64,000 bases of DNA from Phycisphaerales bacterium. Its GTDB lineage: Bacteria; Planctomycetota; Phycisphaerae; SM23-33. The first letter of the stretch is position 1; each line of letters begins with the position of its first letter. The position numbers and the translations under genes are program-made. The notes below the pieces were generated by a model, which searched no databases, was not told the DNA's origin, and saw only the letters and a list, made by a program, of their open reading frames with translations. Where the stretch lies: the NCBI GenBank assembly GCA_018644725.1, contig JABGPZ010000060.1, positions 21,974-85,973 of the forward strand. Direction: 5' to 3'. Below are positions 24,006 to 34,366 of the stretch, in pieces.

Positions 24006-25193
24006 CTACTTCACCTCGTAGCAGACGAGGGTGGCAGTTTTTGAGCTTTTGGGATTGTCGCGGAAAAATACCATCTTGCCTGCGACGCACGGCGAGGTCC
24101 AGCACGGCTTGGTGTTGAAGACCTTGAGGGTTTGCGTCGCCTTGAATCCTGTGGCCGAAAACGGCGCGAGGTACACGGTTCCCCGATTTCCAATGACGAT
24201 CATATTCGTGCCACAGGCGATCAGCCCGCCATCGCCGATGCCCTTTTTGGACCATGTCCGCTTGCCAGTTTTGGCATCGAGGCAGACCAGCGGCGGGGTC
24301 TTCGTCGTATTGCCAGAGAAGCCGTAGAGGTAGCCCTTGTGGAGCATCGGATTGGAGAAGTGGGTGCACATGTTTTTATTTTCCCACACTTTTTTGACTT
24401 TGCCCGTCGCGTCAATTTCCAGCATCGCGCAGCCGCGATCATAGTCACTGGAAATGAATACGCGGTTTGTGCCGACGATCAGCGGTGTCGCGGCGTTGAT
24501 GTTGTACTTGGTTTCCCACGCGATGCTTCCCAAGGCCTTGCCCGTTTTGGGGTCCAGCACGACCAGCCCGCGCGCGGGGAAGGTCAGCAGGACCGTCTTG
24601 TCGCCGGGGAGAGTCATGGGAATCGCCGAGGAGTACGCCTGGCCATAGTCGGTGCGCGTTTGCCATTTGGTCTTGCCCGTCTTGGCGTCGAAGGCGACGA
24701 TCCGGCCGATGTCAATCACGCACAGGCCGTCGTGGATCAGCGGGCTGTTGGCAAAGCCCCACCGGCCCGGGCGGCAGCGGAATTTCTTCGCGTGGCTTTC
24801 CCAGACGGGCTTGCCGGTTTTCGCGTTGAGGCAGAGGATGTGCCCTTCGCGGCTGACGGTGTAGACCTTGCCGTCGAAGACCGAAGGTGTGCAGCGCGGG
24901 CCGCGAAAGTTGCCGTCCGAGCAGCGGTAGGTATGCGTCCAGGTCGTCTTGCCGGTTTTGGCTTCGAGGCAGTACACCGTATCCATACCATTGGAGTTGC
25001 CCATCGTGTACAGCGCGTCACCGACGACGGTGACGTTGGAATAGCCCGTGCCGATGGATTTGGTCCAGAGCTTCTTGCCGATGGAGTTGACCTGCGGGTA
25101 TTGGCCATCGCGCTTGGGCCCGAGGTAGCCTTCGAAGCCCGCAGCCATCACGGCCGTGGTGAGCAACAAAATTGTCAGTGCGGTACGTTTCAT
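24006..25193 (-). CDS. PQQ-like beta-propeller repeat protein
   Basis: Signal peptide; repeated blades YCLEAKTGKTTWTH, LCLNAKTGKPVWES, VAFDAKTGKTKWQT, VVLDPKTGKALGSI, VCLDAKTGKRTWSK. Confidence 0.9.
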   Translation of the reverse strand: MKRTALTILLLTTAVMAAGFEGYLGPKRDGQYPQVNSIGKKLWTKSIGTGYSNVTVVGDALYTMGNSNGMDTVYCLEAKTGKTTWTHTYRCSDGNFRGPRCTPSVFDGKVYTVSREGHILCLNAKTGKPVWESHAKKFRCRPGRWGFANSPLIHDGLCVIDIGRIVAFDAKTGKTKWQTRTDYGQAYSSAIPMTLPGDKTVLLTFPARGLVVLDPKTGKALGSIAWETKYNINAATPLIVGTNRVFISSDYDRGCAMLEIDATGKVKKVWENKNMCTHFSNPMLHKGYLYGFSGNTTKTPPLVCLDAKTGKRTWSKKGIGDGGLIACGTNMIVIGNRGTVYLAPFSATGFKATQTLKVFNTKPCWTSPCVAGKMVFFRDNPKSSKTATLVCYEVK

Positions 25194-25224
25194 ATCGATC
25201 TCCTTATGAGAGTGTCGTCGTATT

Positions 25225-25312
25225 CTATTCGATGCGTTTCAGTGTCAGCGTTCGCGTGGTTTTCGAGAATCACAGGGTTGCTATTCGATGCGTTTCAGTG
25301 TCAGCGTTCGCG
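25225..25312. repeat. 32-bp direct repeat: tsaE 3' end duplicated downstream of the gene
   Basis: CTATTCGATGCGTTTCAGTGTCAGCGTTCGCG occurs at 25225-25256 and 25281-25312; the latter encodes the TsaE C-terminus (RTLTLKRIE*). Confidence 0.95.
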
Positions 25313-25712
25313 AGTTTTCGCCGGTGATGTCAATCGTCAGTTCCCAGCGCGGGTGCGGCAGGGTTGCCCCGGCGAGGTTGGCCCATTCGATCACGACCGC
25401 GCCCTCGGCGAGGAAATCTTCAAGGCCGATGTCTTCGAGTTCTTCGTCCGCGCTGACCATCCGGTAGAGGTCGAGGTGATACAGCGGCCGATCGCCAGCG
25501 GGGTATTGATGGCAGAGAACGTAGGTCGGACTCGAAACGTTGCTCGCATCCGCGCCATAGCCCTCGGCAATCCCGCGCGTGATGGCGGTCTTGCCCGCGC
25601 CGAGAGTCCCCAGCAGCGCCAGGCAGTCGCCCGCGCCGAGTGTCGCGCCGATTTCCCGGCCAACCGCGTAGGTCTCGTCCACGCTCGTCGTATTGTAGAT
25701 GGTTTCGTTCAC
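25281..25712 (-). CDS. tsaE: tRNA threonylcarbamoyladenosine biosynthesis ATPase TsaE
   Basis: LALLGTLGAGKTAITRGIAEGYG...VSSPTYVLCHQYPAGDRPLYHLDLYRM...VVIEWANLAG. Confidence 0.92.
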   Translation of the reverse strand: MNETIYNTTSVDETYAVGREIGATLGAGDCLALLGTLGAGKTAITRGIAEGYGADASNVSSPTYVLCHQYPAGDRPLYHLDLYRMVSADEELEDIGLEDFLAEGAVVIEWANLAGATLPHPRWELTIDITGENSRTLTLKRIE

Positions 25713-25865
25713 GCGCAGAGTTTACCAAAATCGACACGAATTCCCAAGAGGTATTCCTGTGTCAATTCTCAGGGAAAGCTATCAGATTTAACGGGATTTG
25801 CCAAGTGCTATTGCGGCGATAAATTGTGCGGTTGCGTTTTGCGCTTGGCGTGGTATACTTTGGCC

Positions 25866-27008
25866 GTGGAACTACATAACTACATCCGGGCGGAAATCTC
25901 TGCGGGCGCGATTCGTCATAACGTCGCGACGCTGCGTGGTTTGATTCCCGCAGCGACCAAGCTTTGCGCCGTCGTCAAGGCCAACGCGTATGGCCACGGG
26001 CAGCATTTGCTGCTGGAGACGATGAGCGAGTTGGCCGACTTTCTCGCCGTCGCTACCCCGGCCGAGGCGCTCGAATTGCGCAATCTCGGATATGGCGGCG
26101 AATTGCTCGTGTTGTTCACCGCCTGCACCGACAATCGCGAGCCGCACCTTGCGATCACCCTCGACGCACTCGTGCGCGCGGGCGTGACGGTTTCGGTTGC
26201 GTCCCAGCGCGGCATGGACCTGCTGACCAAGTCGGCCCGGCGCGTGGGCGAGCGCGTGAAGATGCACCTCGTCGTCGATACGGGGATGACCCGCAGCGGC
26301 CTGCCTTCGGCCGACGTGCCCGCCGTCGTGCGGAATGCACAGATGGATCCGTCGCTGGAACTCGCGGGGATCTATTCGCACTTTGCCACGGCCGACGAGG
26401 CGGATAAGTCGTCCGCTAAAAATCAGTTGCAGGTGTTTATGGAGACGCTTTCGGCGGCTGGAATTGATAAACATTCAGGCGTAATTCGCCATATGGCCAA
26501 CTCGGCCGCCACGATCGACCTTCCCGAGGCGCATTTGGACATGGTGCGGCCTGGGATCGCGCTGTTTGGCTATCAGCCGTCGACCGAGATGCACAATCGG
26601 CCGGGTCTTCAGCCGGCGTTGCAGCTTTCGGCGCACATTATGCAAACGAAGCAAGTCCCTGCGGGGACTCGGGTTGGATACGGTTTAACGTATGAATTTG
26701 ACCGCGATTCGCGCGTGGGACTCGTGCCGCTGGGCTATGCCGATGGCTATGATCGGCGGCTGGGGAACGTCGCGGCCGTTCGCGTCGGCGAGCGGGTCTG
26801 CCCGGTGCGCGGGCGGGTGTCGATGGACCAGATTTCGATTGACCTCACCGATTGCCCCGAGGCCGAGGCCGGCGATCTTGTGGAAGTGATTTCCACCGAT
26901 CCTGCCGCCCCGAATTCGCTGGAAGCCCTTGCTATTGCAGCGGATACGATTCCGTATGAATTGATGTGTCGCCTCGGCGCCCGCGTCCGCCGCACCCTTG
27001 TGGAGTAG
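25866..27008 (+). CDS. alr: Alanine racemase
   Basis: GTG start 25866: VELHNYIRAEISAGAIRHNVATLRGLIPAATKLCAVVKANAYGHG (PLP Lys motif); RVGYGLTYEF; VSMDQISIDLTD. The upstream part of the track ORF (from 24132) is antisense to other genes. Confidence 0.93.
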   Translation: MELHNYIRAEISAGAIRHNVATLRGLIPAATKLCAVVKANAYGHGQHLLLETMSELADFLAVATPAEALELRNLGYGGELLVLFTACTDNREPHLAITLDALVRAGVTVSVASQRGMDLLTKSARRVGERVKMHLVVDTGMTRSGLPSADVPAVVRNAQMDPSLELAGIYSHFATADEADKSSAKNQLQVFMETLSAAGIDKHSGVIRHMANSAATIDLPEAHLDMVRPGIALFGYQPSTEMHNRPGLQPALQLSAHIMQTKQVPAGTRVGYGLTYEFDRDSRVGLVPLGYADGYDRRLGNVAAVRVGERVCPVRGRVSMDQISIDLTDCPEAEAGDLVEVISTDPAAPNSLEALAIAADTIPYELMCRLGARVRRTLVE

Positions 27009-27316: not shown

Positions 27317-30300
27317 ATGCGTCACGGACGACAATGGATGATTGCGATGCTGCTGGCAGGGATGCTGGCGATTTGCATGTGCAATGGTTTAATTTTTGCA
27401 GAAGAGTCGGCGGAGTCTGCGCCGAATACGCCCACCGTCACGAACCCTGACACCCCGTCCTCACAAGAGAAGTCTGTCCCCACCCCCAATATCGAATCTT
27501 CCGAGAAAAAAGCAGATAAGCCGAGTGTAGAAAACGAGATAGCCCCGAAAGAGGCGCCTGCGTCCAAGTCCGAGCCCAAACCGGAAGTAAACCCAGAAAC
27601 CAAGCCAGAAGTTAAGCCTGTAGAAGAAGTTAAGCCGGAACCCGCGAAGAAGGCGAAAAAGGCCAAGAAAGCCAAGGCCGAGATCAAGGCCGCGGCGGAC
27701 ACGAAGACAAAAGCGGATATCCGCTTCCAGTTCGACGCGGTTCCCTATAAGGATGTCCTCAAGCGGTTCAGCCAGATGATGAATAAGCCGATTCTCGGCG
27801 AGATTGCCGTCGAGGGAACGCTAACCTTCTCCGATCCAAGGCCTTACACGAATGACGAAGCGATGGATACGCTGAATTTGATCCTCGCGATGAAGGGCTA
27901 TGCCCTGCGCGAAGAGGGTCGATTCCTCCGCCTGCGTCCTCTGGCGGAAGTGGCGACGACGACGAAAATCTTCCACGGCCTGGGCGCGGCGACGGGCATT
28001 CGCAGCAACGAAATCGTCACCGTGGTTTTGCCCGTGGCGCATCTGGATTCGACGGCGGCCTCCAAGGCCGTGATTCGCCTGGTGTCCGCGTTTGGATCGA
28101 TCACGCCGCTGGACAACAATCGCGGTATGGTCATCACCGACACGATGGCGAATATCCGCCGCGTGGCGGGCATGCTCAAGGAGCTCGACGTCGAGCCTCC
28201 CGCCAAGGCCAAGCCCCAGATCAAGTCGGTCCTGCTGCACAACGCCTCGGCCAAGACGGTCGCGATGATTCTCCAGAAAATGTTTACATCGACCCCGCAA
28301 ATGCGGTACGACTCGGCCACTCGCCGGATGGTCCCCGTGACCCCCTCCTCGTCAAGTTCTACAAAGAAGTCCGAGTCGAAGCTGATGGTGGCGTATGACG
28401 AGCGGATCAATCTGATTATCCTGTTTGGCGCAGAGGATATGGTTACCCAGGCCGAACAGGTCATCGCCACGTTGGATAAGGATCACCGCGAGGGCCAGGA
28501 CGACATTCGCGTGTTTGAGTTGAAGAACGCGACGGCCTCGGCGGTTGCTCAGGCGATCCACACCATGTTCCCCGCGCCGCGGGCAGGAATGCCGTCGGAC
28601 GTGGCCGTCAGTGCCGACGCCGCGAACAATCGCGTGATCGTGACTGCGACGAAGGTGAAGATGGACCGCATCGAGAATCTGATTAACAAGCTGGACTCCG
28701 CCGGCAAGGAGCTTTCGCGCACACGGATCATTCGCATCGAAAACGCGGACGCGGCGAGTCTCGCCTCGCCTCTGGTTTCGGCGACGCGCAAGATTGACTC
28801 GCGCGGCAGACCGCTCTATCCGCTCGTTGTGACCGCAGAAATGGGAACGAATTCCATTATTTTGACCGGCCCGGAAGTTGAAATCGCAAAGGCCGAAAAA
28901 ATCATCGCGACCCTCGACGTCGCACCGACCGAGCAATACCCCGTGAAGATCATTGCGCTCACCCAGGCTGACCCGGTTTCGGTGGCGACGATTTTGACTC
29001 AGCTCTATGCGCCCCAGGCCATGTCCAAAAGCTCGAAGGTTCCCACCAAGCGCAAGGGCGGCAAGGTTGTGACCGTGTCGATCCGCCCCGAGTTGCGCAG
29101 CCGCAGCTTGCTGGTCCGCGCCGACAAAGCGACCTTTGAAGCCATCGCCGCACTGGCGAAGAAAATTGACGAATCGGCCTCGCGCGGCGAGCGCAAGCGC
29201 ACGATTATTATGATGAATTACGCCGATGCGACCACCGTGTCTCTGGCGTTGCGTCAGGCGTTTGCGCCGGCGCGTGGCAAGAAGATCAATCCCGAAGACG
29301 AGGTGACGATTGTTCCCGAGCCGGGCACGAATTCGCTGATCGTGACTGCCAGCGAAGCGAACCTTAAGAAGGTTCAGGATGTGGTCTCCGGCCTCGACCG
29401 CGAAGACGCCGCCCGTCAACAGACGGCGATGATGGTTCTCAAGAACGCCAAGGCGGCGGACGTGTCGAACGTTCTGGCCGACATTTTCGGCGGTGGCACG
29501 GGCTCCTCGCGTACGTCGCGCAAGCTCAGCGGCAATTCGGTGCTGGCGATTTCGGCCGACGAAACGTCCAACGCCATCGTGCTGCGGGGTTCGGCGAATG
29601 ACGTGGATCGCGCCAAGGATATGATTACCCAGCTCGACAGCGCCTCGAGCAGTGGCGCGACGGCGGTGTATCTGCTGCCGCTGAAGTCGTCCGAGGCCAG
29701 TGCCGTTCTCCAGCGCGTTCAGGACCTGTACAACCAGCAGGCAAGCCAGGCGCGTGCGGCGAAAAAGAAGATTGACCCGATGGCGGTCACGGCCGACACG
29801 CGGGCGAATGTGCTGATCCTCGCGACGTCGAAAACGATGTACGAAACGGTCAAAACGTGGGTCCAGCAGGTCGAGGCGATGAAGCCTGCCTCGCGGACGA
29901 TGAAGATTATTCCGCTGAAACATTCCAAACCCGCCGATGTCAAAACCGTCGTCGATCAGATGTTCAACGAGGCGACATCGGGTACGGGTTCCTCCGTTAA
30001 CATCCGGTACAGTTCGTCGCGCAGTTCCAAGCCCGCCAGCAGCAATCGATGCGAAGTGACGGTGCTGTCCGATCAGAGCGCGGTGATGGTCAAGGCCTCG
30101 AGCGACGATCTCGCCGAGATCGAGAAGATCGTCCAGAGTCTCGAAGAGTCTGCCAAGACGAATAAACGACAGACGAAAATTTTCGCGCTGAAAAACGCGC
30201 CCAACCAGCGAGTGCTGCAGGCGCTGAGGGGAATGTATCCCACCGCCCGTGGCGCTACGGCTGACCAGCAGGTGACCATCTCGGCTGTGACGGGCAGCAA

Positions 30301-33300
30301 CGCGATTCTCGTCGCCGCGCCGACCAGCAAGATGGATGAAATTTCCCACCTCATCGAGCAGCTCGACAAGAAGGAAGTATCCTCCAAGCTCGACTTCCGG
30401 ATTTATGTGCTCGAGAATGCCCAGCCGACAAAAGTCCTGCCGACACTGCAAAAGATGATCGCGCAGATCCTCAGGGCCTATCCTGGCGACACGATTGACA
30501 TCCAGGCCGACCAGCGTACCAAGAGCCTGATCGTGACCGCGCGCGAGGCGCTCTTTAGCGACATTGAACAGCTCATCGGCGCGCTGGACGTCGCACCCGC
30601 AGCGGCTGAAGCGTTTGTCGAAGTCATCATGATCGAGCATGGCAATGCCTCGACCCTGGCGAATGTGCTCAACGAATTGCTGCGCCCCTCGACGACCAAG
30701 CTTGTTACGCCCGAAGCCCTCGCGCTTCAGGAACAGGTCCGCAAGCTCCAGGTCCGTTGCGCCGCCGACGGTACGCTCGCCAAACTCGACCTGACCAAAC
30801 CCATCAAGGTCAATGCGATTCCGCCCGCGCCGCAAGGCTGCAACGCGCTGGTGATCCAATCGACCAAAGAGAACCTTGCCGCGCTGAGTGCGATTGCCGC
30901 GGCGATGGACGCTCCGCCCGCGGGCACGACGCCTAAGGTGCACGAGTACAAACTTGAGAACGGGAATGTGACTTCGATCGCCAGCACGCTGCAGACGCTC
31001 TTTGCCGAGCGCCACGCGGTGATTCGCCTGCGCGATCCCAAGGCCGCCAAGGCCGTCATTGCTCCCGATGTGCGGACGAACACGCTGATGGTCTCGGCCG
31101 TCAAGGAAGACCTTGCCATCATCGAATCGCTGCTGAAAAAGCTCGACGTTGAACTCGACGATGCGACGGTGCAGCTGGAAGTGCTTTCGCTGAAATACAA
31201 TGACGCGGGCACGCTGACGACGTCGCTGAAGCGCCTCTTTGCCGCGCGGCGTAAAAGTCTCACCCCGCTCGGCCAGCAGCAAAATCCCCAGGACGCAGTC
31301 GATATTGAAGCGGACTCGCTGTCGAACTCCCTAGTCGTCTCGGCCAGCAAAGAAAACCTTTCGTTGCTGAAGGGGCTGCTGAAGAAGATCGATGTTTTGC
31401 CCACGGACGAAGCGGGCGTGGTGCGGATGTATGTGCTGGAACACGCCGACGCGTCGCGCGTGGCGGAGATGCTCAAAGACCTCGTCAAGCAGGGGCTCTA
31501 CAAGCCTTCGCTCGTTGGTCAGGGCGCGGCGAAGCTCAAGGATCGCGAGAAGGTTTCGATCACGGTCGACACACGCACGAACGTGCTGATCGTTTCGGCC
31601 AGTCGCGAAAACTTCACGATTCTCGAACAGGTTCTCGGCCGGCTTGACTCCAACGAGAACATTGCCCAGCTTAACCAGATTCAGACCTTCCCGCTGAAAA
31701 AGGCCGACGCGGTTTCGATCGCGCCGACGATTCAGCAATTCTTTGACAAGCGCCTGAGCGCACTCAAGACGGCGGGTTCGACGACGCGGATTCAGCCGGT
31801 CGTGGTCATCGCGGACGGGCGGACCAACAGCCTGCTCGTCGCGGGTAGCCGCGAAACCTTCGGCGAGATCAAGAGCATGATCGAGCGCCTCGACGGTGAC
31901 GCGGTGACGCCGGAAAACAGTTACGAAATCTTCACCCTCAAACATGCTTCGGCCTCGGTGCTTCAGGGTACGTTGCAGAAACTGTTCGACAGCCGCAACC
32001 AGCGCGACGGCAGCAAGGACAAAATCACCGTCCTCTCCGAGCCGACGGCCAACACGCTGATCGTGGGCTGTCCGCCGGAGGACATGCTCGAAGTGCGCAA
32101 GCTGATTACGTCGCTCGACAAGCCGACCGCTGGAGACACCGCGAGCAACACCAAGAGCTATCCGCTCAAGCATGCCGACGCGGCCGAGCTCGTCAAGACG
32201 CTCTCCGACCTGTACAAGACGCAAAACCCCACCGGGACAATCCTCATCGCCGCCGACGAACGCACCAACACCATCGTCCTCACCGGCGGGCTGGGTGACA
32301 TCAAGCGCGTGGGCGAACTCGTTGCCCAGTTGGATCGTGAGACCGTTGCCAACGTGACCGAGATTCGCGTCTTCCCGCTGAAGAACGCTAACGCCGAAGA
32401 GCTGGCGACGTTGCTGACGGAATTGCTGACTCAAAAGCCCAAGGCTCTGACCAAGCTTTCAGCCAACCGCCAGACGCTGTTGCAGTTCGTCACGGCCGAC
32501 AAGAACAACCAGAAAATTATCTCCCAGGCGCTGCACGAAGGGCTGCTGATCAATTCTGATAAGCGCACCAATTCCATTGTCGTCTCTGCGCCCCAGTCCG
32601 TAATTCCGCTGCTGAGTAATCTCATCGGCGCGATGGATGCCATCAGTCCCCAAGAGGCTGAAATCCGCGTCTTCAAGCTCACCAATGCCGACGCGACGCA
32701 GATGGCCGACGTGCTCAACCAGCTCTTCCGCACCGAGGACGCCCCCACGGGTACCTCGCGCAAGGCGCCGGAAGTGACCTACACCCTCAAGGACGGTTCG
32801 GGCAAAGCCGCCGCAAGTACCGGCTCGGCCTCGCAGTCGTCACTGAATATTACCGTCGATGAACGGACCAACTGTCTGCTGATCGGTGGCACGCATCGCC
32901 AGATCGAAATGGCCGCAGCGGTTATCGCCGACCTCGATTCGTCGCCTGCCCAACAGCGCGTGACGAAGGTCTATCGCCCGCGCAACAACGAAGTCGAGAA
33001 CATTGAAAAGGCCCTGCGCAGTTTCCTCGACGAAGAACGCAAACGCATCGAAACCGCCCTCGGCAAAGACCGCCTTGGCGCGGCCCAGCGACTCTTGGAG
33101 CGCGAAGTCGCCGTCGTTGCCGAGCCCAACACCAACACACTGATGATCTCCGCGTCGCCGCGGTATTTCGACACGCTCGTGAAGATGATTGACGAGCTGG
33201 ACCAGCCGCCCGCGCAGGTGCTCATCCAGGCACTGCTCGCGGAGGTGAACATCGACGACACGACCGACCTCGGGATGGAGTGGTCGCACAAAGGCACCGC

Positions 33301-34366
33301 TGGGAGCAACGCGCTCGCCACGGGTGCGGACTTCAACATCCAAGCGGGCATCCAGCAGGGCACGGCCGTGCCGGGCTTCAGCGTGTCGGTCTCGGGCGGA
33401 AATCTGAATTTCTTCCTTCAGGCGTTGCGAAGCCAGAACCGCCTCGAGATTCTCTCTCGCCCGCAATTGCTGGCGATGGACAATCAAAAGGGCGTGATCA
33501 ATGTCGGCCAGGAATTCCCGATCATCACGGGCAGCCGCATCTCCGACAATGACCAGACCTACACCACGATCCAGTACAAGAAAATCGGCGTGACGCTGGA
33601 GATTCTCCCGCGCATCGGCTCGGACGATACGATTCGCCTGGAAGTCCTCGCGTCAAGCTCGTCGGTGGGCACGTCGCAGGTCCAGGTGGCCGAGGGCGTT
33701 CAGGCGCGTTCGATCAACAACCGTTCGGCCGAGACGACCGTCACCTGCTATGACGGCCAGACCATCATTATTGGCGGGCTGATCACGACCGAAGAAAACT
33801 CCGTAGAGAACAAGATCCCCGTCCTGGGCGACCTGCCCTACATCGGCCCGCTCTTCCGCGACATCCACAAGGAAAAACGGCGCGTCGAGTTGCTGATTTT
33901 CCTCACGCCGAAGATCATGCGTTCCAAGACCGCCGCCAAGGACATCACGACCAACGAGCTCAAACGCGAGCACCTCGTCCACACGCTCAACAGCGACGAC
34001 CGCATCAAGCGCGGCACGCTCGACGGCATTCAGGACAAGACGCTCCAGCAGGCTACGGGCATCGGCTCGACGGCCGCCCCCGCCGGTCGCAATGCGGAAA
34101 TCCGCCAGACGGTCATCGACCTGGGCCTCGTGCCCCAGCCTTGGCCAGGCCAGAAGGATCTCTTCCCGCGCTCGGTCGAAATCACACCCCCCGCCAAGTC
34201 GACTTCCGTCCCTGCCCCCGCGCAGGCGGAGCCCGCGTCGACGACGGCTTCTTCTACTTCCCATCAATCTCACTTTGCGCCGCGGCGCTTGTCCGTGACA
34301 CCTCGGGCTGCTGCGAACTCCCGTCGGCGAGTGCCCCGGCTCAGTGAGATGGAGGACTCCCGATGA
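27317..34366 (+). CDS. Giant secretin family protein (~2349 aa) with about 21 tandem N1/NolW-like modules
   Basis: Start MRHGRQWMIAMLLAGMLAICMCNGLIFAEE after AAGGAG; N0-like domain (FDAVPYKDVLKRFSQMMNKPILGE...); repeated xxLKxADAxxVAxxLxxLF...ADxRTNxLIVxxxxxxxxxIxxLIxxLD; C-terminal secretin domain (ILSRPQLLAMDNQKGVINVGQEFPI...GGLITTEENSVENKIPVLGDLPYIGPLFRD...ELLIFLTPKIM). Confidence 0.95.
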   Translation: MRHGRQWMIAMLLAGMLAICMCNGLIFAEESAESAPNTPTVTNPDTPSSQEKSVPTPNIESSEKKADKPSVENEIAPKEAPASKSEPKPEVNPETKPEVKPVEEVKPEPAKKAKKAKKAKAEIKAAADTKTKADIRFQFDAVPYKDVLKRFSQMMNKPILGEIAVEGTLTFSDPRPYTNDEAMDTLNLILAMKGYALREEGRFLRLRPLAEVATTTKIFHGLGAATGIRSNEIVTVVLPVAHLDSTAASKAVIRLVSAFGSITPLDNNRGMVITDTMANIRRVAGMLKELDVEPPAKAKPQIKSVLLHNASAKTVAMILQKMFTSTPQMRYDSATRRMVPVTPSSSSSTKKSESKLMVAYDERINLIILFGAEDMVTQAEQVIATLDKDHREGQDDIRVFELKNATASAVAQAIHTMFPAPRAGMPSDVAVSADAANNRVIVTATKVKMDRIENLINKLDSAGKELSRTRIIRIENADAASLASPLVSATRKIDSRGRPLYPLVVTAEMGTNSIILTGPEVEIAKAEKIIATLDVAPTEQYPVKIIALTQADPVSVATILTQLYAPQAMSKSSKVPTKRKGGKVVTVSIRPELRSRSLLVRADKATFEAIAALAKKIDESASRGERKRTIIMMNYADATTVSLALRQAFAPARGKKINPEDEVTIVPEPGTNSLIVTASEANLKKVQDVVSGLDREDAARQQTAMMVLKNAKAADVSNVLADIFGGGTGSSRTSRKLSGNSVLAISADETSNAIVLRGSANDVDRAKDMITQLDSASSSGATAVYLLPLKSSEASAVLQRVQDLYNQQASQARAAKKKIDPMAVTADTRANVLILATSKTMYETVKTWVQQVEAMKPASRTMKIIPLKHSKPADVKTVVDQMFNEATSGTGSSVNIRYSSSRSSKPASSNRCEVTVLSDQSAVMVKASSDDLAEIEKIVQSLEESAKTNKRQTKIFALKNAPNQRVLQALRGMYPTARGATADQQVTISAVTGSNAILVAAPTSKMDEISHLIEQLDKKEVSSKLDFRIYVLENAQPTKVLPTLQKMIAQILRAYPGDTIDIQADQRTKSLIVTAREALFSDIEQLIGALDVAPAAAEAFVEVIMIEHGNASTLANVLNELLRPSTTKLVTPEALALQEQVRKLQVRCAADGTLAKLDLTKPIKVNAIPPAPQGCNALVIQSTKENLAALSAIAAAMDAPPAGTTPKVHEYKLENGNVTSIASTLQTLFAERHAVIRLRDPKAAKAVIAPDVRTNTLMVSAVKEDLAIIESLLKKLDVELDDATVQLEVLSLKYNDAGTLTTSLKRLFAARRKSLTPLGQQQNPQDAVDIEADSLSNSLVVSASKENLSLLKGLLKKIDVLPTDEAGVVRMYVLEHADASRVAEMLKDLVKQGLYKPSLVGQGAAKLKDREKVSITVDTRTNVLIVSASRENFTILEQVLGRLDSNENIAQLNQIQTFPLKKADAVSIAPTIQQFFDKRLSALKTAGSTTRIQPVVVIADGRTNSLLVAGSRETFGEIKSMIERLDGDAVTPENSYEIFTLKHASASVLQGTLQKLFDSRNQRDGSKDKITVLSEPTANTLIVGCPPEDMLEVRKLITSLDKPTAGDTASNTKSYPLKHADAAELVKTLSDLYKTQNPTGTILIAADERTNTIVLTGGLGDIKRVGELVAQLDRETVANVTEIRVFPLKNANAEELATLLTELLTQKPKALTKLSANRQTLLQFVTADKNNQKIISQALHEGLLINSDKRTNSIVVSAPQSVIPLLSNLIGAMDAISPQEAEIRVFKLTNADATQMADVLNQLFRTEDAPTGTSRKAPEVTYTLKDGSGKAAASTGSASQSSLNITVDERTNCLLIGGTHRQIEMAAAVIADLDSSPAQQRVTKVYRPRNNEVENIEKALRSFLDEERKRIETALGKDRLGAAQRLLEREVAVVAEPNTNTLMISASPRYFDTLVKMIDELDQPPAQVLIQALLAEVNIDDTTDLGMEWSHKGTAGSNALATGADFNIQAGIQQGTAVPGFSVSVSGGNLNFFLQALRSQNRLEILSRPQLLAMDNQKGVINVGQEFPIITGSRISDNDQTYTTIQYKKIGVTLEILPRIGSDDTIRLEVLASSSSVGTSQVQVAEGVQARSINNRSAETTVTCYDGQTIIIGGLITTEENSVENKIPVLGDLPYIGPLFRDIHKEKRRVELLIFLTPKIMRSKTAAKDITTNELKREHLVHTLNSDDRIKRGTLDGIQDKTLQQATGIGSTAAPAGRNAEIRQTVIDLGLVPQPWPGQKDLFPRSVEITPPAKSTSVPAPAQAEPASTTASSTSHQSHFAPRRLSVTPRAAANSRRRVPRLSEMEDSR

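Follow-up and report, generated by a model that had tools for sequence, protein, structure and literature searches.

A gene in a 64-kb stretch of Phycisphaerales DNA (the whole analysed stretch is termed the window) encodes what sequence and modelled structure indicate to be a genuine type II secretin whose N-module array is hugely expanded, of a kind widespread in the class Phycisphaerae. Secretin N-modules link two membranes and characterised secretins have few rings of them; GspD secretins normally carry about three N1-type modules. The window protein has far more N1-type modules than the characterised secretins with which it was compared (PulD and Thermus PilQ). Between 5 and 63 ring-building modules, distributed over one to three genes, make the questions of an extendable tube, and of ring number against periplasm width, testable. 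The system is moreover a concrete candidate for planctomycete protein export across an enlarged periplasm.

Domains of the giant secretin

A preliminary description of the locus, made from the sequence, had proposed a 2349-aa frame with a signal peptide, a Lys/Pro/Glu-rich linker, an N0-like domain, about 21 N1-type modules and a canonical secretin domain. All of this was borne out, the signal peptide by eye and the remainder by the frame itself, Pfam and the profile and fold searches below (Table 1). Base composition in the frame is of coding type (GC by codon position 0.59/0.43/0.78). The Pfam copy-number count that the description had called for gave 21 Secretin_N stretches (E=6.3e-213) and one PF00263 domain, and our own module profile likewise found 21 modules. 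Module starts are spaced by about 72–108 aa, with one 38-aa step that reflects a partial first match; the median over all giants is 81.5 aa. The gspD N0 family PF21305 matches residues 144–201 at E=9.5e-6 and 25.8 bits, 1.2 under its cut-off of 27, and residues 138–291 align weakly with PulD.

Table 1. Features of the secretin locus, in window coordinates
Feature	Position	Strand	Basis or remark
Giant GspD-type secretin gene	27317..34366	+	Single uninterrupted frame, 2349 aa
Signal peptide, about residues 1–28	27317..27400	+	Judged by eye from sequence
Lys/Pro/Glu-rich linker, residues 29–134	27401..27718	+	Sequence
N0 domain, residues 135–209	27719..27943	+	PF21305 match below cut-off; iterated profile
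21 abutting N1-type (Secretin_N) modules, residues 205–1967	27929..33217	+	Pfam; module profile; last nine in AlphaFold2 model
Secretin pore domain, residues 2036–2202	33422..33922	+	PF00263 (Pfam), E=3.2e-48; fold match GspD
C-terminal tail, residues 2220–2349, low-confidence/disordered	33974..34363	+	pLDDT <50, model residues 950–1075
Coupled lipoprotein gene, 179 aa	34363..34902	+	4-base overlap with secretin stop

A profile built from the 21 window modules matched 26 PDB sequences at E≤0.01, secretins without exception. On E. coli GspD it hit three separate stretches (N1, N2 and N3), and several GspDs gave three stretches apiece. AlphaFold2 was used to model the last 1075 aa, which comprise nine modules and the pore, as a monomer from 28 aligned sequences. 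The model shows repeated beta-alpha-beta-beta-alpha units, with pLDDT mostly 70–90; its pTM is 0.35, and the module-to-module geometry is not fixed by it. Foldseek returned 49 matches at E≤1e-3, all of them secretins, the best being GspD 5zdh (E=5e-28).

Judged from sequence, the array is an old one, neither chance nor an assembly repeat, because its modules are on average 21% identical to one another (maximum 37%) and TRF reported no long tandem DNA repeat. An assembly artefact, which the preliminary description had named as a possible undoing of its reading, is ruled out by these two results together with equivalents in dozens of genomes, including seven single-contig assemblies that encode giant frames of 3776–4933 aa.

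Three observations concern neighbouring frames. Directly upstream of the secretin gene, an over-long frame (24132–27008) has an alanine racemase as its C-terminal part, the true start probably lying near residue 580. On the minus strand, opposite the module array, a frame of 976 aa (28352–31282) is probably a shadow frame and not a gene. Pfam finds a sulfatase in the region 15598–17103/17187–20239, beside two more sulfatase-looking genes; the Pfam match is to the first only.

Family identity and partner genes

The best-scoring curated family for the window secretin is TIGR02517 gspD (NCBIfam; 887.7 bits, cut-off 351). The NCBIfam models for PilQ (337) and SctC (294) likewise score above cut-off, though much lower than gspD, and the repeats inflate all three. 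Where a GspD would have three modules, 21 were found here, 21–63 in unsplit relatives and 39–48 when summed over split genes.

Relatives carry the gene in an operon of the order gspE-F-G-(minor pseudopilins)-J-K-L-M-giant D-lipoprotein, with E to M directly upstream of D. Pfam and NCBIfam recognise E (TIGR02533, above cut-off), F, G, J (below cut-off), K and a PilM-type L among the encoded proteins. The M-like protein has weak T2SSM matches in three of eight members, and one of the eight weakly matches T2SSC (E=0.11); no separate gspC gene was found.

The window genome is a 95%-complete assembly of 2.54 Mb in 112 contigs, and the window makes up the final 64 kb of a contig of 86 kb. Of the type II secretion set the window itself holds D and the lipoprotein only, and the preliminary description had supposed an orphan, or a part of an undescribed export or pilus machine. 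That supposition is rejected, as other contigs of the same genome carry dispersed genes for E, F, G, K, L and M, and relatives have these in one operon. Inspection of the genome, which the description had proposed, located orthologues of E (L026:6995–8659, 924.6 bits; next paralogue 586), F (L023:7810–9018, 458.7 bits; next 327), G (contig C68), K (contig C106) and L and M (adjacent, L187:12431–15087), as well as prepilin peptidases on contigs C5 and C100.

Two further secretins are present in this genome (contigs C67 and C89); the one on C89, of 994 aa, lies near another PilM-like gene and belongs to another pilus-type system (L025). A second pilus-type gene set on contig C40 (L022, 186–12499) encodes prepilins, PilC/GspF and three ATPases, two of which are of GspE/PilB type, along with a 938-aa protein that weakly matches the Lamin Tail Domain. 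Another such system, on contig C1 (L027, 2784–9322), has a PilM-like gene, small neighbours and an ATPase.

That the long barrel guides the filament of a pilus or DNA-uptake machine, and does not serve protein secretion, we regard as improbable. Parts of type II secretion systems and type IV pili are homologous, L resembles PilM, and the PilQ and SctC models pass as noted; other planctomycetes have crateriform-structure pili (PMC5394234). However, the gspD score is far above that of PilQ, GspE exceeds the gspE cut-off, and GspK and T2SSG/T2SSJ-type pseudopilins are encoded in the operon. PilT is absent from the listed operons of relatives, and no AMIN domain is listed in the Pfam scan of the window secretin. 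Membership of the PilQ (type IV pilus) family itself is rejected on the lack of AMIN and of pil neighbours and on the gsp-type neighbours in relatives.

Size and distribution of the family

Named relatives in the genome collection come mostly from Phycisphaerae (Planctomycetota). Among 299 genomes of the class, at least 124 rows matching the giant pore alignment are of giant type, with at least 78 frames of ≥2000 aa (median 4288 among the matches listed), at least 50 of ≥4000 aa and at least 35 of 1500–2000 aa; giant-type rows were selected by hand and the short ones include contig-truncated rows, so all of these counts are lower bounds. The largest protein has about 6165–6169 aa (L072, genome G044). 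The variation in length among relatives that the preliminary description had suggested looking for is thus present: 18 unsplit giants have a median of 39.5 modules (sd 9.8, range 21–63). The window protein is a short member, most relatives having more modules.

Elsewhere in the phylum, among the matches listed, the closest longer-than-standard relatives have about 1240–1490 aa. A tree of 102 pore regions places the giants and the 5–12-module forms from Planctomycetia on one branch (support 100/99), apart from standard GspDs; the exceptions are two short or truncated rows, L152 inside the giant branch and L124 outside it. Two proteins in or near Gemmataceae, with 9–12 modules, are longer than the other Planctomycetia forms (L154, 5108–12064, 2318 aa; L102, 5069–11869, 2266 aa). 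Two records named cyanobacterium and Leptolyngbya (L113 and L121) contain a Phycisphaerae-type giant secretin with its lipoprotein and are probably misnamed bins.

Split arrays

Some lineages divide the array between genes. A module-only gene precedes the secretin of 1500–1850 aa in the operon in 11 of the 11 cases fetched with enough upstream sequence. In genome G031 two consecutive module-only genes (1281 and 1243 aa; L195 and L210, contig G031:C10) stand before a 1600-aa secretin, forming a three-gene array, and the secretins of about 2400 aa in G161 and G240 are also each preceded by one module-only gene. In the tree, splits fall on at least two branches that are distant from each other (L073/L087-type and L094/L095), and the split genomes belong to several families.

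Summed over their genes, the 13 split genomes have 39–48 modules (mean 41.8, sd 2.9); the module total varies little among them and more widely among unsplit genomes. To detect N0 in relatives, a profile was iterated from the window's copy. In all 18 unsplit giants the domain lies towards the N-terminus, once per protein; among the 13 split sets it is in the first polypeptide of 12 (the exception is G045) and never in the secretin polypeptide. The pore is found in the last polypeptide only. Because N0 is in the first polypeptide and the pore in the last, the order N0, modules, pore is kept across gene boundaries.

Order, loss and gain of modules

Each window module was compared with those of eight relatives by reciprocal best matches. 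In six of these (L072, L075, L064, L079, L062 and L063) roughly the C-terminal half is in order, and modules 12–16 and 19–21 are reciprocal and ordered in all six; window modules 13 to 21, for example, correspond to 23 to 31 in L062, and to 54 to 62 in L072. Non-reciprocal exceptions are module 17 (L063, L064 and L075), 18 (L064), 11 (L063) and 10 (L079). A four-module gap lies between window modules 12 and 13, consistently across the six relatives.

The N-terminal side is patchier. In L064 modules 1–4 match and the correspondence then jumps from 4 to 21. In L072, L075 and L079 order is regained from module 5 or 6 on, apart from single misses, and in L062 and L063 modules 1–8 have few reciprocal or ordered matches. 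The distant L066 and L070 are mostly non-colinear except for the last few modules (34–36 and 39–41 in L066; 20–22 in L070). Full colinearity is not upheld: it is limited to the part near the pore and to nearer relatives. Support for the positional identity of modules is thus good close to the pore and between nearer relatives; in other regions it is partial, and in distant relatives most of it is gone. This suggests that modules near the pore are individual and ordered.

The comparison further suggests that the window lineage lost a four-module block relative to the six relatives; the window protein has perhaps also lost about 16 more modules near the N-terminus, a figure that comes mainly from L064. 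Gain is seen in L072, where modules around 21–44 have paralogues 51–85% identical within the same protein, a recent block expansion within the gene. Such an expansion, the apparent losses from the window protein and the wide range of 21–63 modules are what would be seen if modules were gained and lost neutrally, with no structural role. We consider this very improbable, given that split genomes of several families total 39–48 modules, that positional orthology holds near the pore and that 854 modules retain the sequence pattern of the N1 type.

The coupled lipoprotein

Of 48 giants, 45 are followed directly by a gene of one lipoprotein family. In the window's member of this family the lipobox has Gly-Cys at residues 28–29, and the Cys is invariant across 24 aligned homologues. 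At the secretin loci compared, those with at least five modules have the lipoprotein close downstream except for L109 (where it was found in another frame), L129 (228 bp of room) and L124 (truncated). None of the complete secretins with four or fewer modules at these loci has it, although the profile was trained on giants, so that absence beside distant standard GspDs is partly a matter of its reach; in Planctomycetia its matches are weaker (30–60 bits). The family, still uncharacterised, is found with almost all of the extended secretins examined and with none of the standard ones.

No Pfam or NCBIfam family was found for the lipoprotein, and a PDB profile search gave two weak unrelated matches. 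AlphaFold2 models it as a beta-sandwich (pLDDT 88), for which Foldseek found nothing at E≤1e-3. Identity with a known pilotin is rejected, since these searches gave no sequence or fold match to one, although the lipobox Cys is present. From its position and lipidation we would guess that the lipoprotein probably serves to target the complex to the outer membrane or to anchor it there, in a pilotin-like manner. The lipoprotein, the gene splitting, the larger relatives and the low module number of the window protein relative to most of them had gone unseen in the preliminary description.

A proposed ring stack

Linkers between consecutive modules have a median of -1 aa in the giants and 98% are ≤10 aa; standard GspDs in the same set have a median of -2. 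Because its linkers are as short as those between standard GspD modules, the array does not look like a loose string. Short linkers, likeness to secretin N-domains only and the end-to-end order of split genes favour a ring stack, in which ring closure itself is what we infer. The explanation that we think best, and consider probable, is a Phycisphaerae type II GspD whose N-module has grown into a very long ring stack by duplication of N1-type modules.

N0 would lie at the inner-membrane end, docking a GspM/GspC-like protein, and the outer membrane would hold the pore. Each of a dozen or more protomers would contribute one domain per ring, and 21 stacked rings would make a long tube. The pseudopilus (G, J and K), driven by GspE, F and L, would push folded enzymes through it. 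On our own estimate of 2.5–4 nm per ring, the 22 rings of the window protein would reach roughly 55–90 nm and the 41 or so of a 40-module relative 100–165 nm, plus the barrel. The preliminary description had foreseen a periplasmic barrel far longer than in characterised secretins; zero-length linkers, N0 and pore at opposite ends of split arrays and the near-constant split total strengthen the part on length, and the closing of every unit into a ring stays at the level of a deduction.

Several findings weigh against the ring stack. A tube of 50–150 nm is longer than an ordinary periplasm, and the range of 21–63 modules in unsplit proteins does not fit one fixed span for the whole class; there are also the pTM of 0.35, the patchy N-terminal colinearity, the search that found no separate gspC gene, the scattered genes in this genome and the passing PilQ and SctC models. 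The planctomycete periplasm is enlarged and invaginated (PMC5394234), and no periplasm width for Phycisphaerae was found in the literature. Crateriform structures are absent in described Phycisphaeraceae (PMC8882080).

Some of the same findings would suit a periplasmic tether or scaffold that is flexible or forms no rings. In this case N0 would stay at the inner membrane and the pore in the outer one, and the domains between them would be strung out in a line that tolerates a variable periplasm. The module range of unsplit proteins, the unfixed module geometry, the variable, invaginated planctomycete periplasm (PMC5394234) and the hinges between rings in Thermus PilQ (PMC5745081) speak for it. 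We nevertheless hold it unlikely, as the linkers are as short as in the ring-forming N1–N3 of GspD, the modules resemble secretin ring-building domains only, and the separate polypeptides of split arrays need some module-to-module contact.

The ring stack can be taken further, in a form that we put forward tentatively and at somewhat less than even chances: Phycisphaerae secretion tubes may be the longest known, with about 40 (21–63) rings and a length of about 100 nm or above. In several lineages two or three proteins would join end to end to form the tube, and the total of about 40 modules in those lineages would be a gauge of the inter-membrane distance.

Comparison with known systems

No description of a giant secretin was found in a search of open-access papers, which is weak evidence of absence as the search covered open-licence papers only. 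GspD/PulD/XcpD are the best family and fold match: like the giant they have N0, N1-type modules and a pore, with partners E, F, G, J, K, L and M. The giant differs in having 21 modules (up to 63 in relatives) where these have three, and its own downstream lipoprotein, a modelled beta-sandwich that matches no known pilotin. Some lineages also have companion genes that encode modules only, and no separate gspC was found. PulD, with N0–N3, is 20 nm long (PMC6882859).

Thermus thermophilus PilQ shares with the giant the extra N rings. With six N rings it is 350 Å (35 nm) long and is called one of the largest secretins, and the extra rings reportedly enable it to bridge most of a wide periplasm (PMC5745081). 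It has six rings against 21–63 modules, serves a pilus/DNA-uptake machine and is encoded by a single gene. The Deinococcus secretin DR_0774 (8co1) is matched by the module profile and by fold, but has 740 aa and one module stretch by profile.

The extended GspDs of Planctomycetia (about 1070–2320 aa, 5–12 modules) share with the giants the same supported tree branch and the same downstream lipoprotein family. They have far fewer modules, and the gsp genes are not adjacent at the two of their loci for which both flanks were fetched (L174 and L175) but are adjacent in Gemmataceae (L107).
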